Virus record (IMG/VR): IMGVR_UViG_3300032222_000348
Location: 1-30,296 of that record
Strand: one strand, 5' to 3'
DNA: 30,296 nt
Source of the DNA: a virus
The notes under the pieces were generated by a model. The model saw only the letters and a program-made list of their open reading frames with translations. It ran no database searches and was not told the DNA's origin. Of the stretch, positions 704-27,597 are shown one piece after another. The translations under genes and the position numbers were made by a program. Every line of letters starts with the position of its first letter. Positions within the stretch are counted from its first letter, which is position 1.

Positions 704-1354
704 ATGAATCCCGAATTTGCTATACCTATTAGTCAGGATCAAGTTAGAGACGCTAAGCTTTACGTTAATAGATATGAATATTTAAAAGAAAATTTAAATA
801 AACAATCAAGCGTATTAGAAGTAGGAACTCATGCTGGAGATTTTGCCGAACATATTTTAAAAAACTACGATCCTTTTTCACTTCACCTAATTGATATTTT
901 TACTCAATATGATTTTGCTGTAGAGGGTGAGCCAAGGTTTGATCCAGAAACCCATGAACAATTTGTTCGCAATAGATTTAAAAATCACCCCGAAGTTAAA
1001 GTTCATAATGGTATGGGTTATAGGTTTATGGTTACAATAAGGATGAATAGAATTGAGGATTTTGATTTTATATATCTTGATTCTAATCATTCATATATGA
1101 ATGTTTTACATGAACTTGGTACTGCAAAAAATCTTTTAGCGCCTGGAGGGGTAATTGCAATAAACGATTATTGTAATTATGGGTTATTCACAAAACATGA
1201 CTATGAGTCTTTAAAATGGGACGATGTTCATATAGGGGTAATTCCAGCAGTTAATTATTTTTTAAGCGTTAATAAAGATTGGTACGTTAAAGCTTTTGCG
1301 TTTAACGAGACTATGAATTCTGATATATATATAGCTAAACGTTCGGACTCTTAG
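704..1354 (+). CDS. SAM-dependent methyltransferase (Methyltransf_24 type)
   Basis: A 216-residue class I methyltransferase. Motif I is SVLEVGTHAGDF (36-47), the acidic ribose-binding turn is LIDIF (62-66), DFDFIYLDSNH spans 119-129 and the late-strand motif is LAPGGVIAINDY (145-156). This matches the family that methylates sugars or small secondary metabolites and is often found with glycosyltransferases. The acceptor cannot be read from the sequence. It is the only plus-strand gene in the window, and its last 20 bases overlap the end of the convergent beta-hydroxylase gene. It shares layout with the methyltransferase at 9136-9837, including an N-terminal NRxEYx element, so the two are probably paralogues. 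It has its own leaderless promoter. Confidence 0.8.
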   Translation: MNPEFAIPISQDQVRDAKLYVNRYEYLKENLNKQSSVLEVGTHAGDFAEHILKNYDPFSLHLIDIFTQYDFAVEGEPRFDPETHEQFVRNRFKNHPEVKVHNGMGYRFMVTIRMNRIEDFDFIYLDSNHSYMNVLHELGTAKNLLAPGGVIAINDYCNYGLFTKHDYESLKWDDVHIGVIPAVNYFLSVNKDWYVKAFAFNETMNSDIYIAKRSDS

Positions 1355-1964
1355 GGAATATATCAATAATTAAATGTATTCTGTCTTCTTTTCCTAAATT
1401 TGATACTGAATGATATTTACCGTTGTGTATCTCCCAGCACTCTCCAGATAACATCTTCTTCTGTTCCCCGTCAATAGTAAATTCTACATCATCGTTTGTA
1501 ACAATGGGTATGTGGTATCTATGAATTGAATTCATATACCTTCCTATACCCGTATTATTATTTAAGTCATAATCATAATGAGGGTGAATGATACAACCAG
1601 CTGGCAAATTTGCAAATAAAACACTGCCTACAAAACCATTGTCGTAATTTTCAAGATATTCAACTAATGGCTGTATTAAATTAATTAGATCTTCTTTATC
1701 GGAAACCGTAGTTACTGGCACTGGCTTGCCTGTCATATAACTTATTTGTAGCATTAAAAATAAATCAGTAATGTCTATTTCTTTTATTACATAAGCCGTG
1801 CTTTGTTCAAGTGGAAAGGCGCCATTCCTTGGCAACTTTTTTCTTTCAATTGCCTTATCTCCTAGCCATTCTTGAGGAGTAAGTTTTAGTATTTCTTTTT
1901 TAATAGAATCTATGTCAAAATTTGTAATATATTTAAAGTTAAAATCACCTTTTAATGTTGACAT
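1335..1964 (-). CDS. Aspartyl/asparaginyl beta-hydroxylase-like Fe(II)/2OG oxygenase
   Basis: A 209-residue protein with the AspH core. FANLPAGCIIHPHYDYD (118-133) holds the candidate metal histidines H127/H129, HRYHIPI (148-154) the conserved arginine strand, and GECWEIHNGKYHSVSN (174-189) the distal metal histidine H185. DRIHLIIDIF (194-203) holds the 2-oxoglutarate-binding arginine. Family members hydroxylate Asp/Asn side chains in proteins, or free or carrier-bound amino acids. It is last in the run that starts at the 4243 promoter and includes catalase. The start at 1964 follows the purine-rich AGAAAGAAGAAAAA. Substrate unknown. Confidence 0.8.
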   Translation of the reverse strand: MSTLKGDFNFKYITNFDIDSIKKEILKLTPQEWLGDKAIERKKLPRNGAFPLEQSTAYVIKEIDITDLFLMLQISYMTGKPVPVTTVSDKEDLINLIQPLVEYLENYDNGFVGSVLFANLPAGCIIHPHYDYDLNNNTGIGRYMNSIHRYHIPIVTNDDVEFTIDGEQKKMLSGECWEIHNGKYHSVSNLGKEDRIHLIIDIFPKSPNV

Positions 1965-2058: not shown

Positions 2059-2178
2059 TTATACCACCTCTGATGTTTTTTCACATCTAGTGCATACTAA
2101 GTAAGTTTTTCCAGTAAATGGGCATGATGACTCTATAGCTTTATGACCTTTAATAAGGCAGGTTAGTTCTTTAATCAT
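2059..2178 (-). CDS. Small zinc-ribbon protein (39 aa, DUF1660-like)
   Basis: A 39-residue protein with the pattern C7-(11)-C19-(9)-C29-xx-C32 and the core SCPFTGKTYLVCTRC. It resembles short phage proteins of the DUF1660 type (CxxxGH ... CP.TGKTY..C.RC). Four cysteines and H12 suggest a structural zinc site. The ATG overlaps the last 8 bases of catalase, so translation is probably coupled. Function unknown. Too short for routine gene callers, but the cysteine pattern and coupling make it credible. Confidence 0.65.
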   Translation of the reverse strand: MIKELTCLIKGHKAIESSCPFTGKTYLVCTRCEKTSEVV

Positions 2179-3439
2179 TTAATTTTTCCCTTATTCCATT
2201 TGCAAAATCTTCATCTACATTAGCAAATATTATCATTTGCTTATCAACTAAATCTTTATTTACACGCTTTAAAGTTCTTGCTAAATTTGAGTAAAGCCTG
2301 TCTTTTTCCTCATGTGTCATAATATTAAAAAGACTTTTAGCAAATCTATATATGCTATTGTTACTGGACTCTTCACATTTCATCCAAGTTTCCACTGGAA
2401 CAAATTTTTTCAATTCTTTTATTACATGATCAGACAAAGGATTTACATCTCTTCCAAGCCTGGTTTTTTGAACTAATGGGTAGGCTGTTACACGATCTAA
2501 TAATCCTCCATCATAAGATAAACCTATACCCTGTGGAACATTTGATGGTGACCATGCCATCTTTTCTATTTGTAGCCATTGATGGTAAGTGTCATCATTT
2601 AATTCCATTATTCCTAATTCTATCAAAGGGTATTGGGAGTGTGGCCATATGTTATTAAGCCTGAATGCATTAAAGTCTAATTTATATATATCTTCTTCTG
2701 GCATTATTTGAACACAAACTTTCCATTTTGGGAAATTTTTTTCAGCTATAGATTTATGCATATCATATGTGTGAAAATTTACTTCCTGTTGTGATACTGC
2801 TGCCGCTTCTTCATCTGTTAAATACTCTATGCCTTGCATTGTTTTAAAATGGAATTTAACCCAGTGTCGTGTTCCATCTTTATTTATGAAAGAGAAAGTG
2901 TTTACTCCATATCCATTCATATTTCGCCATGTTTTTGGAATTCCCCTATCCCCCCATGTCATCATAATTTGATGGATAGATCCTGGATTATTATTAAACC
3001 AGTTCCATCTTATGTTATTATCAAATATTCCTGAAAAATAATTAACCTGAGAGGCATTGTGGAATTCTCTAATTTGACTTCTATCAATAACATACTGTAT
3101 TGGAAAATTTAAACCGACTATATCAAATGGACCATCTTCATTTTCAAATCTTACCGTAAATCCACGGGTATCCCTTAATGTTTCTGTGGTCCCATGCTGG
3201 GAAGCTGTACTTGAAAATCTTACTACAACTTTGCTTTCGTTACCCTTTTTATTAAAAATATTTGATGTTGTGTATTCAGAAATATCATTTGTAGATATAA
3301 AAGTGCCACCAAATCCAGCACCATTGCCATGAAAAATTCTTTCTTTTGAGTACCCGTCTTTATAAAACTGATTCATTCCTGCTGCTGCAGTACTTACCAT
3401 TATGTTATTTGCAAGAGGATCTCTTGATATTTCTGGCAT
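2171..3439 (-). CDS. Heme catalase (compact, 422 aa)
   Basis: Decomposes hydrogen peroxide to water and oxygen. Hallmarks are in order: the distal heme histidine H37 in RIFHGNGAGFGGTF, VVVRFSS (71-77) and RDTRGFTVRF (89-98), the distal asparagine N111 in DIVGLNFP (106-113; usual enzymes have GNN), SDRGIP-like WGDRGIP (162-168), MNGYGVNTFSFIN (174-186), VKFHFKT (194-200), and the proximal R316/Y320 in LLDRVTAY. At 422 residues it is shorter than the usual 480-500 because the N-terminal arm is nearly absent; the catalytic set is complete. It follows four small genes with 5 bases between. The leader holds TATAAATAA before ATG and no clear Shine-Dalgarno sequence. No signal peptide is seen, so it should be cytoplasmic. 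An unusual phage cargo gene. Confidence 0.93.
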   Translation of the reverse strand: MPEISRDPLANNIMVSTAAAGMNQFYKDGYSKERIFHGNGAGFGGTFISTNDISEYTTSNIFNKKGNESKVVVRFSSTASQHGTTETLRDTRGFTVRFENEDGPFDIVGLNFPIQYVIDRSQIREFHNASQVNYFSGIFDNNIRWNWFNNNPGSIHQIMMTWGDRGIPKTWRNMNGYGVNTFSFINKDGTRHWVKFHFKTMQGIEYLTDEEAAAVSQQEVNFHTYDMHKSIAEKNFPKWKVCVQIMPEEDIYKLDFNAFRLNNIWPHSQYPLIELGIMELNDDTYHQWLQIEKMAWSPSNVPQGIGLSYDGGLLDRVTAYPLVQKTRLGRDVNPLSDHVIKELKKFVPVETWMKCEESSNNSIYRFAKSLFNIMTHEEKDRLYSNLARTLKRVNKDLVDKQMIIFANVDEDFANGIREKLND

Positions 3440-3444
3440 TTTAT

Positions 3445-3648
3445 TTATACTTTTTTTCGGCCATTTCTTTTAGCAGGTTTCGGATTTAAAGATACTTCTC
3501 TACGAATTCCATGTTTATTCCGATCAATTTTAATCCCTTGATTATATCTTTGATTAGGATTTTTTCTTGTTGCTTCACGACTTGTAACTGCACCTGAAGC
3601 AGAACCTGCTGCTGGCGGTGTATCCATACCAGTACCGTTTTCGGACAT
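3445..3648 (-). CDS. Small basic protein of unknown function (67 aa)
   Basis: Not recognised. The first 20 residues are small and polar (SENGTGMDTPPAAGSASG) and the rest is strongly basic, with KNPNQRYNQG and RRE and a C-terminal cluster NGRKKV. It appears disordered and nucleic-acid binding is possible by charge alone. The ATG overlaps the stop of the upstream 44-residue gene as TAATG, pointing to coupled translation. Catalase follows 5 bases later. Confidence 0.6.
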   Translation of the reverse strand: MSENGTGMDTPPAAGSASGAVTSREATRKNPNQRYNQGIKIDRNKHGIRREVSLNPKPAKRNGRKKV

Positions 3649-3782
3649 TATAATTCTTTCTTTTTATTTTTTGGATTGTAAGGTTCAATCCAAGCTTTTA
3701 TTGTTCCATCTTTTCGAAGGCGAACAATCCAACCATCTTTAATTTGGGTTGGATTGAACGCAGTCGATTTTCTTTTTGGCAT
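3648..3782 (-). CDS. Small basic protein (44 aa), unknown function
   Basis: Begins MPKRKSTAFNPTQIKDGW and contains a short strand pattern (WIVRLRKDGTIKAWIEPY) before a lysine-rich tail. Both ends overlap neighbours in the TAATG arrangement (start with the 3782-4000 stop, stop with the 3648 start). That exact coupling on both sides is the main evidence it is real. Function unknown; the RLRKDGTIKAWIE stretch suggests a small beta-hairpin. Confidence 0.65.
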   Translation of the reverse strand: MPKRKSTAFNPTQIKDGWIVRLRKDGTIKAWIEPYNPKNKKKEL

Positions 3783-4000
3783 TAATCTATATCTTCACCG
3801 TTTGGGCCTTTAGGCTCAAGTTCTTCATGCATTTCGCTTTCTTCTACTTCTACTTCTGTAGCTCCAAGCGGATTCATCGAATCTGTTCCAAACATTTCTG
3901 GTGAAGTTAATTGAGTTGGATTACCAACATTAGTAACATTTGGATTTGAAATTGCAATATCCATAAAGTTTTGACTGCTGCATCCACACATTAAACACAT
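3782..4000 (-). CDS. Small acidic protein with N-terminal cysteine cluster (72 aa)
   Basis: The first eight residues contain three cysteines (MCLMCGCSS), giving CxxCxC, followed by an Asn/Thr-rich middle and an acidic tail (EVEVEESEMHEELEPKG). It lies between two small genes, 1 base after the stop of the 59-residue protein and overlapping the next gene by TAATG. Not recognised. A metal-binding knuckle or a lipid-like N-terminus are possible, but there is no hydrophobic signal segment to support the second. Confidence 0.6.
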   Translation of the reverse strand: MCLMCGCSSQNFMDIAISNPNVTNVGNPTQLTSPEMFGTDSMNPLGATEVEVEESEMHEELEPKGPNGEDID

Positions 4001-4001
4001 A

Positions 4002-4181
4002 TTACTTACCGTTAGCGCCTAAGCCTGAGCCATCTTGTGATGACTTGTCTTCTGCTGCTGGCCATGAAAGTCCTGCACCAAAATCTCCACCAGATGCTGG
4101 TGATTGTGATTGTGCATTCCAAGGTGTTACGCCTGCTGGGCGTGTCTCGTTAAATCCTGTTAAATTCTTTCCGTCTGACAT
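4002..4181 (-). CDS. Small Gly/Ser-rich protein, first gene of the catalase operon (59 aa)
   Basis: Starts MSDGKNLTGFNETRPAGVTP and is rich in Gly, Ser, Ala and Gln with no hydrophobic segment. It has one of the best Shine-Dalgarno sequences in the window: AGGAG 7 bases before the ATG, behind an extended -10 at 4238-4243. This implies strong expression. A small virion-associated or scaffold-like role is possible but nothing in the sequence proves it. It heads the run that leads into catalase. Confidence 0.65.
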   Translation of the reverse strand: MSDGKNLTGFNETRPAGVTPWNAQSQSPASGGDFGAGLSWPAAEDKSSQDGSGLGANGK

Positions 4182-4300: not shown

Positions 4301-4411
4301 CTAAGATTTATAGGCTTTATGGTAGCAAGACTTACATACATTTAAAACTTGACCATTTGAAATTACAACCATTTTTGCCTCAACGCCACAATCTTTTGTA
4401 GTACAAATCAT
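4301..4411 (-). CDS. Small zinc-finger-like protein (36 aa)
   Basis: Reads MICTTKDCGVEAKMVV...VCKSCYHKAYKS. Four cysteines are spaced C3-(4)-C8-(18)-C27-xx-C30, a typical split zinc ribbon. The ATG overlaps the upstream oxygenase stop as ATGA, showing coupling. It is the last gene of the 5988 operon. Function unknown. Confidence 0.65.
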   Translation of the reverse strand: MICTTKDCGVEAKMVVISNGQVLNVCKSCYHKAYKS

Positions 4412-5088
4412 TTATTTTCAGCAACCTCAAATAGCTTAATCAATTCCATTACATTCCATCCTTTGGTGTTTGTTTCATTCAAATCCTTTTTATATATTGG
4501 GAAATATTCATTTATTTCCTCTGCCTGACCCTCAAGCAAGGGGATTGGCATTGTTTTATCTACAAAGCTATAGAACATTACGTAAAGATATTCGCCTTGC
4601 TTAAACTCTTGAGGCTTTCTCCAATGAATTACACGTAATGAATCAAAAGCCAGGCATTCTCCATTTTTGACAATGTACTCATCATCTCTCATAACTAAAG
4701 GCCAGTCTACGTTGCCATCTAACTGATAGTCTAAAAGAAAACATACATGAGATGGTCTATCAAAATGAGGTGAAAGCTGTGGATTACCGTATTCAGCTGA
4801 ATATTTTACAATAGAAATATATTCAAATTCAGCATTTGGATTTAATTTTTTTGCATGTTCTTTTGCGTGTTGTAAAAATTGTGGTGGGAAATCATTTTCT
4901 CCTAGATTAATATAAGCTTTTCCTACACTTGGATCTAGCTTTAATGGAGAATTAACAGTAGCAAGATTTTCTTCTTTTTTATATTGTTTTGCATCCCACA
5001 GACCTTCTACATATCTAATAAACTCTTGCCTTAAGTCTTCTGGCATAAACTCTTCTATGATATGAGTTTTTATTGATGGGATAAGCAT
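4408..5088 (-). CDS. Fe(II)/2OG-oxygenase-like protein, compact family, paralogue 1
   Basis: A 226-residue protein with an HxD...H facial-triad pattern: H108/D110 in LSPHFDRPSH, then VCFLLDYQL, and H155/R157 in SLRVIHWRKP, followed by a GEYLYVMFYSF strand (165-175). This fits a double-stranded beta-helix oxygenase in which HxD and the distal His bind iron and the following Arg binds 2-oxoglutarate. It is about 40% identical by eye to the next gene (5093-5788) and shares the same core with 13660-14271. Starts 4 bases after the upstream stop. Substrate unknown; other readings are a related cupin or a non-enzymatic jelly roll, but the triad favours an enzyme. Confidence 0.7.
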   Translation of the reverse strand: MLIPSIKTHIIEEFMPEDLRQEFIRYVEGLWDAKQYKKEENLATVNSPLKLDPSVGKAYINLGENDFPPQFLQHAKEHAKKLNPNAEFEYISIVKYSAEYGNPQLSPHFDRPSHVCFLLDYQLDGNVDWPLVMRDDEYIVKNGECLAFDSLRVIHWRKPQEFKQGEYLYVMFYSFVDKTMPIPLLEGQAEEINEYFPIYKKDLNETNTKGWNVMELIKLFEVAENK

Positions 5089-5092
5089 AGGA

Positions 5093-5788
5093 TTATTGTA
5101 CCATACCGTCTCTATTTAAATCAAGAAACTCTAGCATCTCTCTATTGTTAAATTGTTGAATTAGTAATTTATGAGAGTCGCTAAAATTTTCTTTACCTAA
5201 TTGTTCTAGATAAACATTAAAATATTTTTCTAATTTATTTGCCTGTGCCTCTGGTGGCGGAAGTACCATAGAGTCATCAGCGTAGTGATAGAATGCCATG
5301 TAAACATACTCTCCGTCATTGAAGGTTTTTGGCATTCTCCAGTGTATAGTTCTTATTGAGTCAAATACTAAACAAGAATTGTCTTCTAGTGGGAACAACT
5401 CTCCGTCAATACAAATTGGCCATGTTAAATTACTTTCAATTTGATAATCTATAATAAAACAAAGATTGGAAGGTGAATCAAAATGAGGTGGAAGTTGAGG
5501 GGTGCCATGCTCTTTTGCATATCTCACAACAGATAGAAATACAAATTTAGCATTAGGATTAATGCTTTGAGCGTACTCTGTTACTGGATCTAAAAACTTT
5601 TTTGGCAAATACGGATCAATTATATTTGTATATGTTTTACCTAAAAATTTGTCTAATTTAAGTGGTGATAATTTTGTATTCTTTTTATAATCCCAGATAT
5701 CTTTAATAAAATCTACATATTCTAGATGAATATTTTTATAAAAAAGATCTTTCTTTATGTGTGCATTTACTGATGGGACTATAGACAT
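5093..5788 (-). CDS. Fe(II)/2OG-oxygenase-like protein, compact family, paralogue 2
   Basis: A 231-residue tandem paralogue of the 4408-5088 protein. Triad: H102/D104 in LPPHFDSPSN and H149/R151 in SIRTIHWRMP, followed by GEYVYMAFYHYADD. The shared N-terminus (xIxPSxxxHI) and the shared SPLKLDxxxGK...Y segment show duplication of a whole gene rather than of a domain. The neighbours are DUF2061 upstream (5 bases) and the other paralogue downstream (4 bases). The two copies differ in their middle and C-terminal residues, consistent with different substrates. Confidence 0.7.
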   Translation of the reverse strand: MSIVPSVNAHIKKDLFYKNIHLEYVDFIKDIWDYKKNTKLSPLKLDKFLGKTYTNIIDPYLPKKFLDPVTEYAQSINPNAKFVFLSVVRYAKEHGTPQLPPHFDSPSNLCFIIDYQIESNLTWPICIDGELFPLEDNSCLVFDSIRTIHWRMPKTFNDGEYVYMAFYHYADDSMVLPPPEAQANKLEKYFNVYLEQLGKENFSDSHKLLIQQFNNREMLEFLDLNRDGMVQ

Positions 5789-7162: not shown

Positions 7163-7333
7163 TTAGTGCAATTCATTTATTTTTACGTGAAAGGAACATG
7201 GATCTCCGCCTTCGTCCCACTCAATCATTTCTTCATCTGTTAATGGCGGTCCTTCATGAGTATCGCAAAATACATCAGAAATCCATCCTTTATCGTATCC
7301 GTATTCCATCCATGAATCAAAATTTAAATCCAT
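7163..7333 (-). CDS. Small acidic protein (56 aa), unknown function
   Basis: Reads MDLNFDSWMEYGYDKGWISD then VFCDTHEGPPLTDEE and ends GGDPCSFHVKINELH. It is strongly acidic in the middle (TDEEMIEWDEGGD) with two cysteines. The ATG overlaps the last 10 bases of thioredoxin, so it is translationally coupled. The GWISDVFCDTHEGPPLT style is familiar from small phage proteins that I cannot assign to a function. Any functional link to thioredoxin is inference. Confidence 0.7.
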   Translation of the reverse strand: MDLNFDSWMEYGYDKGWISDVFCDTHEGPPLTDEEMIEWDEGGDPCSFHVKINELH

Positions 7334-7626
7334 TGCTCTAATTCCTTTAACAAAACATGCTTTGGTTTTGCTCCAGTAATTACTTTTACTGGGACTCTAT
7401 TTTCAAATAGAATCATTGTTGGAATTGTTGTAACAGAAAACTCACGAGTTTTTGCAAGATTTTCATCAATATTAATCTTTCCTACTGGCAATTTATATTC
7501 TAAAGAAATTTCATCTAGAATTGGTGAAACCTGTTTACAGGGAGCACACCATTCTGCCCAGAAATCCATTAAGATTACTGGATGCCTTGATATTGTTGTT
7601 TCAAAATTAATGTCTGTAACTTCCAT
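7324..7626 (-). CDS. Thioredoxin
   Basis: A 100-residue thioredoxin with the redox motif in DFWAEWCAPCKQ (C27 and C30) and the cis-proline in TTIPTM (P69). It reduces disulfides and may feed ribonucleotide reductase or, in some phages, a polymerase. A longer reading from 7668 would add 14 residues overlapping the upstream gene. I chose 7626 because AGGAG lies 5 bases before that ATG. It follows the glycosylase-like gene by 8 bases and overlaps the small acidic gene. Confidence 0.92.
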   Translation of the reverse strand: MEVTDINFETTISRHPVILMDFWAEWCAPCKQVSPILDEISLEYKLPVGKINIDENLAKTREFSVTTIPTMILFENRVPVKVITGAKPKHVLLKELEQWI

Positions 7627-7634
7627 ATAAACTC

Positions 7635-8111
7635 CTAAGAAATAATTGCATGACCAACAACTGGCCAATAATAGTTACACTTTTGACAACATGTGTAACC
7701 CAATTCTTTATAATCTGAATATTCTTGATAGAACCAGTAATGCTCTGGATCTTTTTCAAACAATCTACCTTTATGAGTATAATGTAAATTATTGTCTCCA
7801 AGCCACCACGGCTTTTCAGATTCCATTCCCATAAAATTTTGTTCATATATTTCATCAAACTTAGTATGTGTTGTATTTTTATATCCTCTTTGAATAATAT
7901 CTTTAATTATTGCTTCATTATATAAAAATAACCAGTCTTCGTGGCCTCTCCACATTTTTACTGCTGGATGATTAGACCATGCTCCAGTTTCATACATGCC
8001 AGCTAACGATTTTAAAATTTGTAAATTTTCTACACTTTGTTTAATTAAACGTTTACGGTCAAGATGCTTAGCGGTTTGCTGAAAGTCCGACTCTGGTAAG
8101 AATGTTTGCAT
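7635..8111 (-). CDS. Pyrimidine-dimer DNA glycosylase-like protein (PF03013 / DenV-related)
   Basis: A 158-residue protein with the family signature: MQTFLPESDFQQTAKHLDRK at the N-terminus, RLIKQSVENLQIL (21-33) and W-SNHPAVKMWRGHE (45-58). PF03013 includes T4 endonuclease V and a large group of uncharacterised bacterial proteins of this MQTFLP type, so UV-lesion repair is likely but not proven. The C-terminus contains two paired cysteines (TCCQKC), unlike DenV. It has its own promoter with good -35 and -10 boxes and a near-leaderless start, and is followed by thioredoxin. Confidence 0.75.
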   Translation of the reverse strand: MQTFLPESDFQQTAKHLDRKRLIKQSVENLQILKSLAGMYETGAWSNHPAVKMWRGHEDWLFLYNEAIIKDIIQRGYKNTTHTKFDEIYEQNFMGMESEKPWWLGDNNLHYTHKGRLFEKDPEHYWFYQEYSDYKELGYTCCQKCNYYWPVVGHAIIS

Positions 8112-11496: not shown

Positions 11497-11525
11497 ATTA
11501 TACTCTAGACTTCAATTATTGTAAA
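11497..11525 (-). promoter_or_regulatory. Promoter inside the upstream gene, leaderless start at 11490
   Basis: TTTACA (11520-11525), 17-base spacer, TATAAT (11497-11502), 6 bases to the ATG. The -35 lies in the last codons of the Ntn-hydrolase gene. Confidence 0.75.
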
Positions 11526-12071
11526 GGGAGGTCTTACTGACATGTTAAATTTTGCTGCAGCTTCTAAAGCCATCCTAACACGTTTTCTTGGGGTTTTTAT
11601 AGCTGCTGTAGAATACAATGAGCCTAAAGCTAGCTCTTGTCCAGCTCCCTCAGCCATATACTGTATGTCAGCTTCTCCAATATGGAAATCTGAATCCATT
11701 GTAAATATCCGACCAGTCCCTTGAACTGAAATCAAGAATACTCCGCCTGCATCGCCATCTTCAGAGCCCTGTCCAAAATTTCCGTATCCGTGCTCTTTAA
11801 AAGATTCTTTAACGGAATCTACAAACTTTGTTCTCATAAATTTATCTAAATTTTTATATCCAGCCGTTGGCTTATATACTGGTGGAACCCAGTTGTACTG
11901 TAAAATTTGTCCCATTCTAAAACTATCGACAAACCCTATTCCAAATTGACCAACTTTAAAAACCTTAGCGTCTGTTCTGGAAAATATCAGTCCACTTTTA
12001 TCGTCAGAAGCAGCAGCATCCCCGCCAAGGAATACTTTGTTTTCATTAATTAAGGCTACGATACAGGTCAT
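11505..12071 (-). CDS. Proteasome beta / HslV-like Ntn hydrolase
   Basis: A 188-residue protein starting MTCIVALI. After removal of Met, Thr2 would be the N-terminal nucleophile. FLGGDAAAS (14-22) gives the aspartate at the position of proteasome D17, and TDAKVFKV (33-40) contains the candidate active-site lysine. The Ntn fold strands continue with GIGFVDSFRMGQ (43-54). FMRTKFVDSVKESFKEHGYG and GTGRIFTMDSDFH fit the later strands. There is no ATPase or alpha-subunit gene nearby. It could be a self-standing protease ring, or a decoy or replacement subunit. A homologous, small phage group of MTCIV proteins is known to me, function unproven. Confidence 0.75.
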   Translation of the reverse strand: MTCIVALINENKVFLGGDAAASDDKSGLIFSRTDAKVFKVGQFGIGFVDSFRMGQILQYNWVPPVYKPTAGYKNLDKFMRTKFVDSVKESFKEHGYGNFGQGSEDGDAGGVFLISVQGTGRIFTMDSDFHIGEADIQYMAEGAGQELALGSLYSTAAIKTPRKRVRMALEAAAKFNMSVRPPFTIIEV

Positions 12072-12866: not shown

Positions 12867-13158
12867 CTTCCAGTTCGCATCTTACTCCGTATGACTCTAT
12901 TACTCTTTTTACCTTTGATACATAATCAATTACTTGTTCTTTTTTTATGCCATCAAACTGTAAAAAATTGTCTTCATATAATCTTACTGCAAGAAACTCT
13001 GGGTATTTTGCGATGTCCATAAGTAACATTGATGGCTTTTGCAATTCACGTATTTTTTGAGCCATCTCTTTTGTATAAAAAACTGGCTTATTTGGTTCAC
13101 CCGTCCATTGATTAATACCATATTTAAAATGATCTTTATCTTTATTAATGAATTCCAT
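12841..13158 (-). CDS. Protein of unknown function (105 aa) downstream of WhiB
   Basis: Contains DHFKYGINQWTGEPNKPVFY near the start, then KEMAQKIRELQKPSMLLMDIA and a mixed alpha/beta rest that ends KRVIESYGVRCELEGVPSER. Not recognised. The start overlaps the WhiB gene by 14 bases. Being directly behind WhiB it could be regulated with it, but nothing shows a physical link. Confidence 0.6.
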   Translation of the reverse strand: MEFINKDKDHFKYGINQWTGEPNKPVFYTKEMAQKIRELQKPSMLLMDIAKYPEFLAVRLYEDNFLQFDGIKKEQVIDYVSKVKRVIESYGVRCELEGVPSERVL

Positions 13159-13459
13159 TTTTTGCCCTTACTCTTTTCCAAACTTCTTTTGTTTTATGAA
13201 TATTTCTAGACTTATCCGTTGATCCAGAGTTTAGATAAACTCCTCCCCAGACCCCGTATTCATCATTTTCTACTCCAGATTGATAACAAAATTTAGAAAC
13301 TGGACAAGACATGCATGCCTCATCTATGCTTTTTGCAACATTAATATCTGTTTCATATTTTTCATAAAATAAATTCGTATCCATTCCACGGCATGCTGAT
13401 AGATGATACCAGTCAAAATCATCTTGGTCTAGGCCTAAATCATTTAAAATATTTGACAT
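13145..13459 (-). CDS. WhiB-family Fe-S transcription regulator
   Basis: A 104-residue WhiB-like protein. Four cysteines are placed C23, C49, C52 and C58 (ACRG, CMSCPVSKFC), the set that binds a [4Fe-4S] cluster, followed by GVWGG (69-73), the turn that defines the family, and a basic C-terminus KEVWKRVRAKNG for DNA or sigma-factor contact. WhiB proteins occur essentially only in actinobacteria and their phages, so this is the best host marker here. It lies in mid-operon after oxygenase genes and could control or be controlled by redox state along with catalase and thioredoxin, which is inference. Confidence 0.93.
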   Translation of the reverse strand: MSNILNDLGLDQDDFDWYHLSACRGMDTNLFYEKYETDINVAKSIDEACMSCPVSKFCYQSGVENDEYGVWGGVYLNSGSTDKSRNIHKTKEVWKRVRAKNGIH

Positions 13460-13673
13460 ACTTTTTATTTAGCCTCCATGTTCCATCGTTTTCAATATTA
13501 ATTCTTTGTAAAATCCCCCAAGAATCTTTTTTATATGATCCATCTTTTCTAAAGTATCCACTGTTATTTTTTTCCCATATGTTTAATTCATAATTATTCC
13601 AATAACAGTCTCTATTAGACGATTGAAATCTTTCAATAAACACTTTTACTCCTTGTAAATTAAGAGTTAACAT
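13440..13673 (-). CDS. Small protein of unknown function (77 aa)
   Basis: Reads MLTLNLQGVKVFIERFQSSN and is rich in Asn, Tyr, Trp and Lys, ending in KYVKYFK. An upstream ATG (13715) would add 14 residues but overlaps the preceding oxygenase by 56 bases. The ATG at 13673 overlaps it by only 14, so I prefer it; the choice is not certain. The WNNYELNIWEKNNSGYFRKD region looks like a compact beta-rich domain. Function unknown. Confidence 0.55.
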   Translation of the reverse strand: MLTLNLQGVKVFIERFQSSNRDCYWNNYELNIWEKNNSGYFRKDGSYKKDSWGILQRINIENDGTWRLNKKYVKYFK

Positions 13674-14271
13674 TTTGGTTTCTTTCGTAATATAAAGTTT
13701 TATAGTAGTTAACAAGCCTTCTCATATTTAATCTATGTGTATCTGTAATATCTTCTGAAAGTGGATCCTCTAAGTGTGCAAAAACCATGTCTAAAAAGCT
13801 ATATGATTCAAAGTCCACTTTGTCTCTCCAATGAACTTGGTGGGTGCCAGAAAATGTGAGGGCTTGGTTATCTTTTAAAACATATTTTTTATTTGAAACA
13901 TATATAGGCCATTCAAAACTAGAGGCCATTTGTATATCAAAAGTAAATACTGGTTTTGGGAAAGCAGTGTCTACGTGAGGGAATAATTCTGGAACAACTC
14001 CAGTTTCTAAAGTATATCTACAAAACTGTAACGCTCTTAATTTCATTTTTTTCCCAGCTACATTAGACACATGTTCCTCTATGGTTTCCCATATATCTCT
14101 TGCTCCGCCATCAATTTCGTCAAACTCTTTTATAAAAAATAACTTTTGTCCTTGATTTGTATTATCAACAACCTTATCTTTTGGGCATGAATCAACATAT
14201 TTATATATTCTACTTATTTGATCTTGTGTAAAAACATTATCAACAACAATTTGTTCTAGCTCTAGGTTCAT
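13660..14271 (-). CDS. Fe(II)/2OG-oxygenase-like protein, compact family, paralogue 3
   Basis: A 203-residue protein sharing the core of the 4408-5088 and 5093-5788 proteins. PELFPHVDTAF (94-104; H99/D101) is the HxD part, FTFDIQMA and WPIYV follow, and HQVHWRD (144-150) gives the distal H147 with R149. It is shorter and more diverged than the tandem pair. The stop of the neighbouring P4H-type gene overlaps the start (TAATG). Same fold and motif order support Fe(II)/2OG chemistry; the substrate is unknown. Confidence 0.65.
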   Translation of the reverse strand: MNLELEQIVVDNVFTQDQISRIYKYVDSCPKDKVVDNTNQGQKLFFIKEFDEIDGGARDIWETIEEHVSNVAGKKMKLRALQFCRYTLETGVVPELFPHVDTAFPKPVFTFDIQMASSFEWPIYVSNKKYVLKDNQALTFSGTHQVHWRDKVDFESYSFLDMVFAHLEDPLSEDITDTHRLNMRRLVNYYKTLYYERNQNVNS

Positions 14272-14978
14272 TAGAATGTATTTAAATCCGATCCATCTTC
14301 ACCAGGGTTTCTCCATAGGGCTGTGGAGTCTCTAAAGTCTGCTGTGTCTGGGGCTTCTTTTTCTTCTACATCAAATGTGTACCAAATTGGCATTGTGTAT
14401 CTTACTCCAGAAGTTACGTGGGTTACTTCGTGAGGGTAATTGCTTGGAAATAAAACTAATGTTCCTGCTTTAGGTTTTAAAAATATATCATACTGAGGAA
14501 AATTAATTTGTCCTCCTTCATAATTATCGTTAGGATACATTAATCCAGATATGTTTAATCTATAGTATGAAGACTTGGCAACTGGCTCACCGTTTGGATG
14601 TAAACAGTCTGCATGCAGACCAGAACCCATTCCCTCTCTCCATTTAACAAAATGAAGTTGATTCCATGGGGTTCTTCTTACTGGAACTCCATATTTTTCG
14701 CAATAATATTTTTCAATTGCTTCATATATTTTTGTATTGTATTTGTGAAGCAATGCATATACAGTTCTATTTTCATTTACTACTCTAGTAAATTTAATAT
14801 CTTTACCACCTGAGAATTCTGGATCATCCCTATATTGCTCTAAATATTGAAATACAATTTTTCTATCTTGTTCTTCAAGGAAATCTTCAATAATAATGAC
14901 ATTGTCTTTACTGTTACCTATTTTGTCAAAATTTTCTTTATACTTGTTCCAAATTTTTGGATTTAATACGTCAGACAT
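14271..14978 (-). CDS. Prolyl-4-hydroxylase-type Fe(II)/2OG oxygenase, copy A
   Basis: A 235-residue protein with the P4H core. GLHADCLHPNG (120-130) holds H122 and D124, LNISGLMYPNDNYEGGQINF (141-160) is the conserved strand-turn, KPKAGTLVLFPSNYPHEV (168-185) leads to H183, and TSGVRYTMPIW (189-199) supplies the 2OG-binding R193. All four key residues are present. P4H-type enzymes hydroxylate prolines or related peptide positions; virus members are known. Copy B is at 22609-23277. The start lies in an AATAATG overlap with the SGNH-like gene, which carries GGAGAA before it. Confidence 0.85.
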   Translation of the reverse strand: MSDVLNPKIWNKYKENFDKIGNSKDNVIIIEDFLEEQDRKIVFQYLEQYRDDPEFSGGKDIKFTRVVNENRTVYALLHKYNTKIYEAIEKYYCEKYGVPVRRTPWNQLHFVKWREGMGSGLHADCLHPNGEPVAKSSYYRLNISGLMYPNDNYEGGQINFPQYDIFLKPKAGTLVLFPSNYPHEVTHVTSGVRYTMPIWYTFDVEEKEAPDTADFRDSTALWRNPGEDGSDLNTF

Positions 14979-17359: not shown

Positions 17360-19801
17360 TTACCCCCTTATTCTCAAAATTGAACTACCAAGGATTACTT
17401 GGCCAACTAAAATTACTGCCACTAAAACCTCTGTGGCATCTTTTCTTTCTTGTGGAGACATATCTGCTCCAATATTTGCTAATGCTTTACCAAGCTCGCA
17501 TTTCTGTTCTTCTGTTAATCCTTCAATTGCTTCTTCTGGATTAAAACATCCAGAAATTGCATTAACAAGTGCTGCTGGAGATTCTAATGCTAGTAGTGCC
17601 GAAGCGACTTCTGCTGTAATAACTACTGGATTACCATTAGAATCCTCTCTAACCTCTACTGGAATTTGTGGAGGAAGATCACGATACTCAAGTCCCGCTG
17701 CAATAATATCTGCTGCTGCAATTGGGGCGCCTTCCGATGAATCTACTAATGCATCCGAAACTAATTCTTTTTCTGCTAGGGTAAACGTACCGTCTTCAGT
17801 TAATGCATCTGATAAATTATTTACTTCTTCAGTTGTTATTTCACCGTCTGCAGATAGAGCTTCAAGTACAGCTTCTGCATCTTCAGCTGTTAAGTTTCCA
17901 TCTTCGATAAGATTTTCAACCACTTCAACTATTTCTTCTACCGACATTTCTTCTGCAGGTGGTTCTTCAGCAGGTGGTTCTTCAGCAGGTGGTTCTTCTG
18001 CTGGTGGTTCTTCAGCAGGTGGTTCTTCAGCAGGTGGTTCTTCAGCAGGTGGTTCTTCAGCAGGTGGTTCTTCTGCTGGTGGTTCTTCTGCTGGTGGTTC
18101 TTCTGCTGGTGGCTCTTCTGCTGGTGGCTCAATGGCAGGAGGTTCTGATGCTCCTCCACCAGTTAAGTTAGAACTTTGTGTAGCAGGTATGGAAATAACA
18201 GTTTCAGTATAAGTACTTACTGGCCCAGACCAGTTAGCAACTCTAATAGTATAAGTAGCGCCTTCTGTCAAACCAGTTAATTCAATAGATTCTGGTGCAC
18301 CATCTGTATTTAATGTTTGTCCTTCGTATGGATTTTCTGCATTAGGATCATTTGTTACTACTTGATAAAACCAAGTGTTGGCTTCATAGCCTTGAGGTAG
18401 TTCTGGAGCAATTGTTACAGTAGTTCCTTCAATAATAGGTTCTGCAAGAATTGGAGCGGGAGTAGGAATATTATTATTTATAGCAGATATAAGTTGTCCT
18501 GCTTTAGTGTTTAATGTTGACTGTAAGGAAGTTTTTGTTGATACTGCTGAGTTTACGATATTATTTAAAGATGTTGTGTTAATAGAATTTATATTTGATG
18601 TATTTATTGAATTTTGTGCAACGACTGGAGATAGACTTTGATTTAATTGAGTAATAGTTGCATTTGCTGAATCTACTGCTGCCTGAACAGTTGAAGTGTT
18701 TGGATCTACATATGGAGTAAATGATGTACCCTGACTTATTTGTCCCGCAAATCCAGTGCCTGTATTTGTATCGTTAATTTCTGAGATAGCACCATTTGTT
18801 GTTTCTCTATAATTAAATCTTGCACCATTCGGTATTGGACCAACTGCAGTTACATTTGCCATCCAAGCGCCATCATTTGGATTAATATCAGCGTTAAATC
18901 TTATTTGAACCATTTGAGTAGAAGCATCTTGTTGTGGATAAGGCCTTAAGTCCCAAGCAATGTCTAGACTTGTTCCAGTGGTTGAATATGTTATTCCAGT
19001 TCCTGTACTCCAGGTAGTCCAATCCCACCCAGCAATAGAAACAGATGGTGCGTCTGGAGTTTGATAATAAACCCATCCCTGATCTACTCCAAATGTTATT
19101 GTAGCATTTGATCCTACATATACATTGCTATATAAGGTTCCGCCCATTTGCATTCCGAAAGGAAGATTCATTCTTATTCCAGCGTCATCTACGCCAGCCA
19201 AAACGTTTGTTGTTGTTCCAATGGTTGCCTGTAAATTATTTACTGCTGTTTGTGCATTATCAATAGCAATATTTGCCTGAGTTAATTCTGTTTGAGCAGT
19301 TGCTTGTGCTGCAGAAGCTGTTGTTTTTGCCGCAGAAACTTGTAATACTTCTGTCTGTGCGGAAGTTACCGTAATACTATCTACGGCTGTTTGAGCAACC
19401 ACTATTGTTTGTTTGGAATCCTGAACTATTTGAGAGCTTTGGTCTATTGGATTTGTTGCTAGATTAATACTACTTATTGTAGTAGTTGCAGTATCAACTA
19501 GGGCAATTGCTGTTTGAGCTGTTGAAATACTTTGAGTTAGTTGTGTTACTGCTGATTGAGCTTGTGATAATTCTGTTTGAGCTGTTGATATTAATGCTGT
19601 AGATGAATCTGTGGCTGCAATAGCTTGTTGAACTTCTGCATTAGCCACCCCAAGAGCTGTGTTTACTGCTTGTTGAGCGGGGCTTACTGCAACCTGTTCT
19701 GATCCGCCTGTATCTGTAGCATGAGCACTATCTGGTATAGAAAGCGTTAACCAACCTAAAACAATAAGGCTGAATAATAAAAGTTTAACTTTTCTAGTCA
19801 A
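17360..19801 (-). CDS. Large secreted/anchored surface protein with (EEPPA)n stalk (813 aa)
   Basis: Signal peptide (RK...LLLFSLIVLGWLTL, cleavage near SAHA), then Ala/Thr/Gln-rich helical coiled coil (about 35-200), a beta-rich domain with aromatic residues (about 205-355; FGVDQGWVYYQTPDAP, YRETTNGA), a second helical stretch, a fibronectin-III-like domain (about 455-545; TGLTEGATYTIRVANWSG), then eleven EEPPA units preceded by IEPPA and SEPPA, an EF-hand-like acidic helical region (EDGNLTAEDAEAVLEAL) and a C-terminal hydrophobic anchor (TEVLVAVILVGQVILGSS) with RIRG. Starts at TTG with AGGAG 9 bases before it. Likely a fibre-like or host-surface protein. A PEP-rich stalk is a plausible target of prolyl hydroxylase-type enzymes; that is inference. 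Confidence 0.75.
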   Translation of the reverse strand: MTRKVKLLLFSLIVLGWLTLSIPDSAHATDTGGSEQVAVSPAQQAVNTALGVANAEVQQAIAATDSSTALISTAQTELSQAQSAVTQLTQSISTAQTAIALVDTATTTISSINLATNPIDQSSQIVQDSKQTIVVAQTAVDSITVTSAQTEVLQVSAAKTTASAAQATAQTELTQANIAIDNAQTAVNNLQATIGTTTNVLAGVDDAGIRMNLPFGMQMGGTLYSNVYVGSNATITFGVDQGWVYYQTPDAPSVSIAGWDWTTWSTGTGITYSTTGTSLDIAWDLRPYPQQDASTQMVQIRFNADINPNDGAWMANVTAVGPIPNGARFNYRETTNGAISEINDTNTGTGFAGQISQGTSFTPYVDPNTSTVQAAVDSANATITQLNQSLSPVVAQNSINTSNINSINTTSLNNIVNSAVSTKTSLQSTLNTKAGQLISAINNNIPTPAPILAEPIIEGTTVTIAPELPQGYEANTWFYQVVTNDPNAENPYEGQTLNTDGAPESIELTGLTEGATYTIRVANWSGPVSTYTETVISIPATQSSNLTGGGASEPPAIEPPAEEPPAEEPPAEEPPAEEPPAEEPPAEEPPAEEPPAEEPPAEEPPAEEPPAEEPPAEEMSVEEIVEVVENLIEDGNLTAEDAEAVLEALSADGEITTEEVNNLSDALTEDGTFTLAEKELVSDALVDSSEGAPIAAADIIAAGLEYRDLPPQIPVEVREDSNGNPVVITAEVASALLALESPAALVNAISGCFNPEEAIEGLTEEQKCELGKALANIGADMSPQERKDATEVLVAVILVGQVILGSSILRIRG
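17957..18136. repeat. Tandem 15-base repeat coding for the EEPPA stalk
   Basis: Twelve in-register 15-base units of the type GGTGGTTCTTCAGCA (read on the plus strand) encode (E/I)EPPA. Silent changes (CAGCA versus TGCTG) alternate among units, which shows selection on the peptide and probably recent expansion. The number of units is likely to vary between relatives. Confidence 0.9.
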
Positions 19802-22608: not shown

Positions 22609-23277
22609 CTATTTTTCTGGCCTTGGATTAAATCCCTCAAATTGAGCCCATTGTGACAGCGTGTATCTTGTTCCAGATGTTATTTCTGCAACACCGTGGA
22701 CATAATGCAAGCTTCCAGGAAACATTATGAGCATCCTTTTTTTTGGTCTAATCCCCCAGTCTAACTCAGGAAAATATAGTTCTCCACCTTCATAGTCGTC
22801 ATTTAAATATGCAAGTATTGATAGGTGTCCGCTCCATAAATAAGGGTATAAATCTAATTCTGATTCGTATGTATCGTTTTCATAGTCTGTATTATCAATA
22901 TCAAGTATATCTGTATGCGGATCTATTCTTGTTCCCTTTGGATGTACTACATATAAAAATTGTTTGTCGTCAAGAAGATTTATTTGATAAGCATTTCTTC
23001 CCATTCTTTTCATTTTTCTAGACATCATTAATGAAAACTCCTGCTCTTCTAAAGTTGTTACGTAAGAAGGTACGGTATGTATTGGATAAGAATGGTCTGC
23101 TCCCTCAATTACAGGGTACTTTGTTATGATCCGCATTGCAGTTTCAATTTCTTCGTTTGTTAAAAAGTTTTCAACTACTTTTATATTATTTATACCAGTT
23201 CCAATTTTAGCAGTTATGTTGTCTATAAGCTTAATATCATTTCGTGGCACATACCAGTCTGGTGTTAGCTCATGCAT
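22609..23277 (-). CDS. Prolyl-4-hydroxylase-type Fe(II)/2OG oxygenase, copy B
   Basis: A 222-residue P4H-type oxygenase. RIDPHTDILD (117-126) holds H121 and D123, NDDYEGGELYFPELDWG (159-175), MLIMFPGSL (182-190) with H194 in the following HGVAEITSG, and R204 in SGTRYTLSQW. All four iron/2OG residues are present. It shares the core with copy A (14271-14978) but N-terminal regions differ (NNIKVVENFLTNEEIE here). Starts 8 bases inside the TipAS-like gene. P4H-type enzymes act on peptides with proline, sometimes with collagen-like repeats; target unknown here. Confidence 0.85.
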   Translation of the reverse strand: MHELTPDWYVPRNDIKLIDNITAKIGTGINNIKVVENFLTNEEIETAMRIITKYPVIEGADHSYPIHTVPSYVTTLEEQEFSLMMSRKMKRMGRNAYQINLLDDKQFLYVVHPKGTRIDPHTDILDIDNTDYENDTYESELDLYPYLWSGHLSILAYLNDDYEGGELYFPELDWGIRPKKRMLIMFPGSLHYVHGVAEITSGTRYTLSQWAQFEGFNPRPEK

Positions 23278-25555: not shown

Positions 25556-25798
25556 TCAGACAATAGTTTCTTTATCTATTGACTCTTCGACTATTGATTG
25601 TACATAATCAGAAAAATGTTTTCTAATATTTCCCGATGGTCTTCCGCCGATTGAAGACCAAAGTCTTTTATACTCTATAACGTTAGCAAATGTTGTTGGG
25701 CAAAGAGTAATTCCATTATATTCTTTTAGAACTATTGGCAACGGGACATGCTTTCCGCAACATAAACATTGTTTAGCTTGATCTTGATAAAAACTCAT
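25556..25798 (-). CDS. Small zinc-binding-like protein after terminase (80 aa)
   Basis: Contains CLCCGKHVPLPIVLKEYNG and a further cysteine (LCPTTF), a split zinc-ribbon pattern, then SIGGRPSGNIRKHFSDYVQS, which resembles a basic DNA-contacting helix. It overlaps the large terminase stop by 4 bases. Function unknown; the position suggests packaging or DNA handling. Confidence 0.65.
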   Translation of the reverse strand: MSFYQDQAKQCLCCGKHVPLPIVLKEYNGITLCPTTFANVIEYKRLWSSIGGRPSGNIRKHFSDYVQSIVEESIDKETIV

Positions 25799-27597
25799 AA
25801 TATTTGCATCCTATCCATTGCGTCCTGTAATGAACTTGGCATTCTTGGTGCCCTAATCATATTCATAACAACTTCCTCTTCTTTCTCTTCTCTATCAAAA
25901 CTAAATGATTCATATGTATGTACATTTATTTCTTGATTATTATCAAACCTGGTTCTACTTATTGCATTAAATATAGACCCACAAACGGCGTCTGCTAAAT
26001 CCTTCGAACCCTTTCTTGGGTGGTCAACTTTATCTCTCATTATTTTAAGCTGAAGTAATTCATCTATCAATAAAGATATATGAGGCCCCTGCAATCTTTC
26101 TTCTAAAACAACCATTGCCATATCGTCGTAATGTTTTTTAGCAACAGACAAAATTTCAGTATTAATTCCATAAGTTTTAAGCTGCTGCATCATGTCGTGA
26201 GAATTCCATCTATCAAATGTGCATACGCTAATATTAAATCCTCTTGTTTTAAGTGCAAGAATGTAATCTTTCACCTCAGTAAAATCTACAGATTTATCTG
26301 GGGTTGGTGTCCAATACCTTACTGCATCTACATTAACTATAGGTGCTGGTTGAGAATATTCATTTGTAACTTTTACATTAACCCATCTTTCAACATGGGC
26401 TAGCGAGACTGCACAGTGGTCGTGTTTTTGTGCAAGGTCAACATGAATAAAATACTTTTTGTCTGGGTCTGGCTTAAACCATTCTTCAAGTCTGCCAAAT
26501 TTGTCTACTGCTATTGCCGTGTTGTTAAAGGCTTTTTCTACTTTTTCTCTTGATTTAAAAAATGCATCGATCATTTCTGGTGGCATGCATGCAAATCTTC
26601 CTAATGCATCTAATGAGTTTTTATAGAACGCTGTTTTAAAATCATCAATTTTTCTTGTTGGATTTACTTCCCAGGTTGGTCTTTTTAATGCGTATACTTT
26701 TGGAACTAGGTAAGATTTAATATGATCCTCTTCCCATTCTACTTCAAACTCATTTCCCTCAACCCCGTCTGGTAAATCTTCGTCCATTTTAAATTTATGA
26801 ACTCTTATAATTGTTTCTTTTTCAGCAATAGATCCTTCATAAAATTTTTGAATAGGGTCATTTTTAAATCGTGGAAAAGAAAGCAATATTACTTTACCGT
26901 AGTCTGGAAAACGTGAATCAACAGAACCCCTATACATCTCATAGATAGCATCTGCTGTTTTGGCTTGATCGTGGCCAGTAGTGTTTTCGATTGCAAAACC
27001 AGCAATCTCGTCTAGAATTACAACCAAAACGTTATAACCTTCCCAGGCTTCTCTTTCTGAGTGTCCTGAATGTACTGTAATTGCTTTATCAAATTTCATT
27101 TCAGAAGCTTTTGATTCATACTTGCCCGCAAACCATGGAGATCTCTCAATTCTTGTTTTAAAACCTTTAAAGAAAACGTTGTTGGCTTGTTGTGCGTTAA
27201 TAGCAATATTAAGAATATCTATAGAGTCACCTGGAGGTTTTCCATAATATGTTGCTGGATCTTTTAAACACAATAACAAATACACTATGTAAGAAACTGC
27301 TATTGTAGAACAGTAATCTTTGCCAGATCCTTTGCCAAGTTGTGCTATAACTTCTGTTGCAGTTTGCTTAAATATCCTGGATCCTTCATCTTCTCCAAAT
27401 AATTTAATTAGAGTTGACTCTTTATATATCTGTGAACTTTTTTCAATTAATGTATATTGAAGATCTGAAAGCGGAGGCAATCCTAAATAATTTGGGCTGG
27501 TGACAAAAGTTTTAAGTTCTACTGGCCTTTCTTCAAACTCTTCTCCGTCAAGGATATCAATAAGATCATTAAAATTAAGCTCCACTGACTTCCTCAA
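25795..27597 (-). CDS. terL: Terminase large subunit
   Basis: A 600-residue packaging motor. Walker A-like QLGKGSGKDY (86-95), Walker B VVILDE (192-197), coupling segment near LLSFPRFKND (238-247), and a nuclease domain with FIHVDLAQKHDH (383-394; D387, D393), VCTFDRWNS and KDLADAV, as in Terminase_6/RNase H-fold nucleases. The protein packages concatemeric DNA into proheads and makes the packaging cut. Starts 23 bases inside terS. Unusually, no portal gene follows. Confidence 0.93.
   Translation of the reverse strand: MRKSVELNFNDLIDILDGEEFEERPVELKTFVTSPNYLGLPPLSDLQYTLIEKSSQIYKESTLIKLFGEDEGSRIFKQTATEVIAQLGKGSGKDYCSTIAVSYIVYLLLCLKDPATYYGKPPGDSIDILNIAINAQQANNVFFKGFKTRIERSPWFAGKYESKASEMKFDKAITVHSGHSEREAWEGYNVLVVILDEIAGFAIENTTGHDQAKTADAIYEMYRGSVDSRFPDYGKVILLSFPRFKNDPIQKFYEGSIAEKETIIRVHKFKMDEDLPDGVEGNEFEVEWEEDHIKSYLVPKVYALKRPTWEVNPTRKIDDFKTAFYKNSLDALGRFACMPPEMIDAFFKSREKVEKAFNNTAIAVDKFGRLEEWFKPDPDKKYFIHVDLAQKHDHCAVSLAHVERWVNVKVTNEYSQPAPIVNVDAVRYWTPTPDKSVDFTEVKDYILALKTRGFNISVCTFDRWNSHDMMQQLKTYGINTEILSVAKKHYDDMAMVVLEERLQGPHISLLIDELLQLKIMRDKVDHPRKGSKDLADAVCGSIFNAISRTRFDNNQEINVHTYESFSFDREEKEEEVVMNMIRAPRMPSSLQDAMDRMQIL

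Follow-up and report, generated by a model that had tools for sequence, protein, structure and literature searches.

A compact, phage-specific clade of catalase-superfamily proteins with a remodelled distal pocket, carried as optional cargo by large actinophages

The window, by which we mean the whole 30,296-base stretch of an IMG/VR virus record that was analysed, encodes a protein belonging to a new, phage-specific catalase clade in which the distal pocket is remodelled and the architecture reduced. We propose, with a probability of roughly 0.6, that this protein is a phage-specific enzyme of the catalase superfamily, carried as optional cargo of the late operon, which consumes peroxides through catalatic and/or peroxidatic turnover at a reduced rate. 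The gene and its neighbours are arranged as follows.

2171..3439, minus strand: catalase-fold, predicted heme protein of 422 aa (ORF, Pfam, PDB match, alignment and AF2 model)
3445..3648, minus strand: small basic protein of 67 aa, 5 bases upstream of the catalase start, with about 47–65% identity in the lineage
3648–3782, 3782–4000 and 4002–4181, minus strand: three small ORFs of the same operon (ORF list)
4408..5788, minus strand: two related proteins of 226 and 231 aa with a 2OG-Fe(II)-oxygenase-like HxD...H pattern and no Pfam match, upstream in the same operon
2059..2178, minus strand: Cys-rich ORF of 39 aa whose ATG overlaps the catalase stop by 8 bases, a coupled operon arrangement
1335..1964, minus strand: Asp/Arg beta-hydroxylase-like gene downstream of the catalase, also near the catalase in the related records G006, G007 and G008

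The catalase ORF is intact and fills the minus strand from 3439 to 2171, where the plus strand is rich in stop codons. The 422-aa protein matches the Pfam families Catalase (1.4e-93) and Catalase-rel (4.2e-11), and its matches to solved clade-3 catalases reach about 1e-81 at 31–36% identity; matches of this strength exclude a chance ORF. Since the start lies 5 bases after a small gene and the stop is overlapped by the 39-aa ORF, the gene is embedded in an operon. The initial annotation had described an operon with four small genes and a hydroxylase, which agrees with the small ORFs preceding the catalase and the Asp/Arg-hydroxylase-like gene following it. The 67-aa protein carries a conserved DxNKHGIRRE-like motif and, in many phages of the lineage, sits at the slot's edge irrespective of what the slot contains. 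A PHROG match of the ORF at 4408–5088 to ferrochelatase was set aside, as the protein shows the HxD...H oxygenase-like pattern.

An AF2 model of the protein has a mean pLDDT of 86, and its residues 28–422 align structurally with H. pylori catalase over 385 residues (VIA Z 51.7, rmsd 2.5 Å). By profile and by fold (VIA Z of about 51 against clade-3 catalases) the protein is thus a member of the Catalase superfamily (PF00199 fold). With the NADPH-binding clade-3 catalases (H. pylori KatA, P. aeruginosa KatA, human) it shares the barrel, the His, Ser, Arg and Tyr of the heme site, residues of the NADPH site and the C-terminal helical domain. Alignment with human and bacterial catalases shows that the whole phage clade, unlike these enzymes, has lost the N-terminal arm together with some 45 residues of the wrapping segment. 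The phage proteins measure 422–426 aa against at least 455 aa in every full-length comparison homologue fetched, bearing out the compact, arm-less architecture claimed earlier. Having no arm, the protein probably assembles into something simpler than the tetramer usual in catalases.

The most distinctive changes concern the distal side of the heme. In the GNN motif it is the first Asn (human N148, H. pylori N129) that serves as the catalytic distal residue and helps to bind and polarise the peroxide; mutants of it in human catalase reportedly change the rate and not the chemistry (Gao 2008, cited in PMC5617202). In the window protein this position is Leu110. A heme catalase with H37, N111, R316 and Y320 intact had been annotated: H37, R316 and Y320 do align with human H75, R354 and Y358, but N111 aligns with human N149 and is not the catalytic residue. 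The initial annotation had noted GLN in place of GNN without recognising that the catalytic Asn was the one lost. In the human catalase sequence used for these alignments, His75, Asn148, Arg354 and Tyr358 land at the expected numbers; H. pylori numbering follows the chain matched in the search of solved structures.

We compared ten phage sequences with 113 other catalases, nearly all from bacterial and archaeal genomes and the rest ordinary catalases on IMG/VR contigs. Human position 148 is Leu in all ten phage rows and Asn in all 113 comparison rows. The same complete separation is seen at position 116 (Thr, T78 in the window, against Val) and at position 153 (Gln, Q115, against Phe), while position 161 is Ile, Val or Thr in the phage rows and never Phe (I123 in the window), against Phe in 113 of 113. 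A fifth position, human V74, is Phe in every phage row (F36). It precedes the distal His and is said to act as a switch between catalase and allene oxide synthase. Across the whole phage clade, the loss of the distal Asn is accompanied by a coordinated replacement of the distal hydrophobic residues. Other parts of the site are retained: the distal H37 and S76, the proximal R316 and Y320 and the heme-propionate residues R34, R74 and R327 are present in all ten phage sequences. Most residues of the NADPH site are kept as well; there the window protein has H156, R165, K199, W265 and H267, equivalent to human H194, R203, K237, W303 and H305, and also keeps N175. Among the more distant phage catalases (L102, also listed as G005, and L211–L213), three have Ser for the second Asn of GNN, and two have Thr for Arg203 in human numbering, the only two of the ten phage rows with this change. 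In this subgroup the pocket has thus drifted further.

Compared with a canonical monofunctional catalase (EC 1.11.1.6), the protein has the distal His and the distal Ser; it is without the distal Asn, the hydrophobic V116/F153/F161 set, and the N-terminal threading arm with a full wrapping domain. Because the distal Asn and the hydrophobic pocket are altered, ordinary catalase activity cannot be assumed.

Three further genes serve as markers, the first for the slot in which the catalase lies and the other two for the phage lineage.

6055..7059, minus strand: secreted-looking protein of 334 aa that, in related phages, delimits the cargo slot on its upstream side
13145..13459, minus strand: WhiB-family regulator, an actinophage marker
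25795..27597, minus strand: terminase large subunit (TerL), the lineage marker gene

Besides TerL and WhiB the window encodes a TerS-like protein, a RuvC-like protein and a CHAP endolysin. Its TerL is 61–63% identical to that of Streptomyces phages of about 128 kb, which together with WhiB places the window among the actinophages and supports the actinobacterial host suggested before. Related TerL genes were found on more than 590 IMG/VR contigs, the best 80 being 81–95% identical.

A single-sequence scan of IMG/VR with the catalase gave no match; a degenerate active-site motif followed by an alignment search recovered the family, with the same catalase on ten other IMG/VR contigs. Six of these proteins are 60–65% and four are 41–43% identical to that of the window, and a partial eleventh copy lies at the end of contig L232. 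At least 11 other IMG/VR contigs therefore carry the gene, near the end of the late operon, and most of them clearly belong to the same large-actinophage lineage; in four of the ten records found by the motif scan a TerL 78–84% identical to that of the window is also present. Gene order, compared with the short record G001 set aside, is shared: RuvC, TerS, TerL, carbamoyltransferase, CHAP, WhiB, S8 peptidase, the 6055-type protein, DUF2061, the 3445-type protein and cargo. The catalase occupies the cargo position in 4 of the 45 lineage loci that reach at least 7 kb past the anchor gene, other loci holding 2OG-oxygenase-like or unknown genes in the same slot. A Pfam search of 50 TerL-related records for a catalase gave none; many of these are short fragments, but one of them is 114 kb long. 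In a TerL tree aimed at the gains and losses of the gene, most relatives were fragments. The late operon ends in a slot of variable content, and the phage catalase is one of its optional cargoes. In record G005 the TerL is the nearest among the catalase carriers (84%), yet its catalase is among the most distant (42%), so that exchange or replacement of the gene takes place between phages.

These contigs also bear on the origin of the gene. The catalase could be a bacterial one if the contig were chimeric, or bacterial and filed as viral by mistake; such cases do exist in IMG/VR, where records L103, L104 and L105 hold ordinary catalases without synteny to this phage. In the window, however, phage genes flank the catalase and the next ORF overlaps it. 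The related contigs were searched for a bacterial context and instead place most of the 11 further copies in syntenic phage operons of independent contigs, four of them with the TerL 78–84% identical. Contamination is rejected by this synteny; we regard a misfiled contig as extremely improbable, and the gene as encoded by the phage, as had been claimed. L103–L105, and likewise L325 and L326 (Acinetobacter phage MD-2021a records), are labelled as phages or viruses and look like pieces of bacterial chromosomes with ordinary catalases.

Phylogenetic analysis placed the phage sequences in one clade (100/100 in the more careful tree) on a stem of 1.35 substitutions per column, in line with the diverged clade proposed initially. 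The clade has full support in both trees; relative to KatE it sits on the side of the small-subunit enzymes, and it does not fall among the actinobacterial catalases. Cellular homologues reached 32–42% identity for the closest ones found, and 396 genomes of the actinobacterial phylum contained no catalase of the phage type, the best identity being 42%. Both the best match in these 396 genomes and the position outside the actinobacterial clade led us to reject descent from actinobacterial catalases. Within the clade, dN/dS is 0.04–0.19 in the seven pairs with a reliable estimate, showing that purifying selection maintains the gene; a single near-identical pair with very few changes gave 0.64.

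The clade-3 fold and the retained residues (His and Ser on the distal side, Tyr and Arg on the proximal side, and those of the NADPH site) would all suit an ordinary high-turnover catalase of host origin that acts on H2O2, its pocket changes being neutral or compensated, for example by Gln115 supplying the lost amide; moreover, the distal Asn is reportedly not strictly essential (Gao 2008). Against this, five pocket or channel positions have changed together in ten of ten phage sequences, four of them invariant in 113 comparison sequences, and the clade sits on a long stem and is not nested in the actinobacterial catalases, so that we consider an ordinary catalase rather unlikely. A further candidate is a hydroperoxide-specific relative resembling the coral allene oxide synthase/hydroperoxide lyase or the minimal peroxidases and acting on organic or lipid hydroperoxides, for instance in remodelling host membrane products. 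In its favour, the channel could become more open and more polar without Phe153, Phe161 and Val116. The changed Val74 is also the catalase/allene oxide synthase switch position (Tosha 2006, cited in PMC5617202), although the phage residue there is Phe and not Thr, and no lipoxygenase or lipid gene was recognised in the window. The coral enzymes, like the phage protein, are a catalase core retuned through changes of the distal pocket; they differ in keeping the distal Asn and in being fused to a lipoxygenase (PMC5617202). The minimal relatives mostly lack this Asn, which speaks for a hydroperoxide specificity that we nevertheless find improbable on balance.

The minimal catalase-related proteins (about 305 aa, from actinobacteria, Mycobacterium avium MAP type) resemble the phage protein in being short, arm-less and, for the most part, without the distal Asn. 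Of six such proteins matched by eye, most have a residue other than Asn at the distal position and one keeps it. They are only 21–25% identical to the phage protein and end at about 300 aa without a C-terminal helical domain, unlike the phage protein with its 422 aa and Catalase-rel domain. An AU test neither favoured nor rejected a tree joining the phage clade with them (p 0.18). The analogy to a minimal peroxidase rests on resemblance; the frequent lack of the distal Asn in these proteins speaks for the slowed-turnover reading too.

Under the preferred reading of a slowed, peroxide-consuming phage enzyme, the protein would take up heme from the host and would form compound I with peroxide, His37 and Ser76 lying above the heme and Tyr320 below. 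Turnover would be slowed, catalatic and/or peroxidatic, and might extend to substrates larger than H2O2. The phage would profit because the infected cell is shielded from peroxide at a late stage, with the phage thioredoxin acting beside the enzyme. That the protein binds heme, is active, has a simpler oligomeric form and works late is inferred from the features described above. More speculatively, the phage protein could represent a new functional type with a relocated distal amide (Asn148 to Leu, Phe153 to Gln) and an opened channel, giving a compact peroxidase for peroxides or reductants unused by cellular catalases, in hosts short of catalase and heme; we put this forward as a tentative suggestion.

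Strains of the freshwater acI actinobacteria have been kept in stable axenic culture with the help of added catalase, and one strain has a KatG that proved not to be a functional catalase (PMC7527133); acI strains are also heme auxotrophs (PMC10202952, PMC12381374). Such a need for catalase fits a benefit from a peroxide-acting phage enzyme, and heme auxotrophy would mean that the heme has to be scavenged. The host may be acI or another actinobacterium, and protection of the infected cell from peroxide, as proposed in the initial annotation, stays conjectural. A heme-dependent phage enzyme would bear on the limits that peroxide stress and heme supply set to infection, should the host link hold, and it may guard infected cells from peroxides in a manner different from ordinary catalase. 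In addition, the roles of the distal Asn and of the hydrophobic channel are a long-standing subject of heme enzymology, and an old, still selected clade that gave up both amounts to a natural experiment on them.

Catalase had been called rare in phages. This holds for the heme type and not for Mn-catalases, which occur in about 200 gut phage genomes (Benler et al. 2021, PMC8008677). That freshwater phages carry ROS defence genes is already an established idea (Kavagutti et al. 2019, PMC6802176), catalase being absent from the main text of that study. Relief of oxidative stress was likewise proposed for the gut-phage and freshwater genes, whose families (ferritin-like Mn-catalase, SOD, glutathione peroxidase, thioredoxin) are unrelated to the present one. 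A heme catalase is also annotated in the genome of a tailed phage, Acetobacter phage phiAO1; it differs in belonging to the large-subunit KatE type, is 707 aa long, has the usual Asn and Phe residues in the distal pocket and represents an unrelated acquisition. The other INPHARED matches examined were host catalases or mislabelled bacterial contigs. BFVD held no phage match and only a Tupanvirus catalase, and PHROGs no family match for the protein. In the literature searched, which stopped short of subscription journals, we found no description of heme catalases in these actinophages.

Six oxygenase-like genes of the window lie at 4408–5788, 13660–14978, 22609–23277 and 1335–1964, three with Pfam support (2OG-Fe(II) or Asp/Arg hydroxylase) and three recognised by an HxD...H-like pattern only; related phages have several such genes inside the cargo slot. 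Genes for the thioredoxin and a pyrimidine-dimer DNA glycosylase adjoin at 7324–8111, upstream of the slot, as in many relatives, so that phage genes for repair and redox functions neighbour the catalase locus. At 11505–12071 a 188-aa protein, mostly 82–88% conserved in the lineage and without a Pfam family match, has an N-terminus that by eye resembles Ntn hydrolases (proteasome/HslV-like). Finally, an 813-aa protein at 17360–19801, conserved at 34–85% in the lineage, contains a long PAEEP repeat tract and a weak fibronectin-like match and is possibly a virion surface protein.
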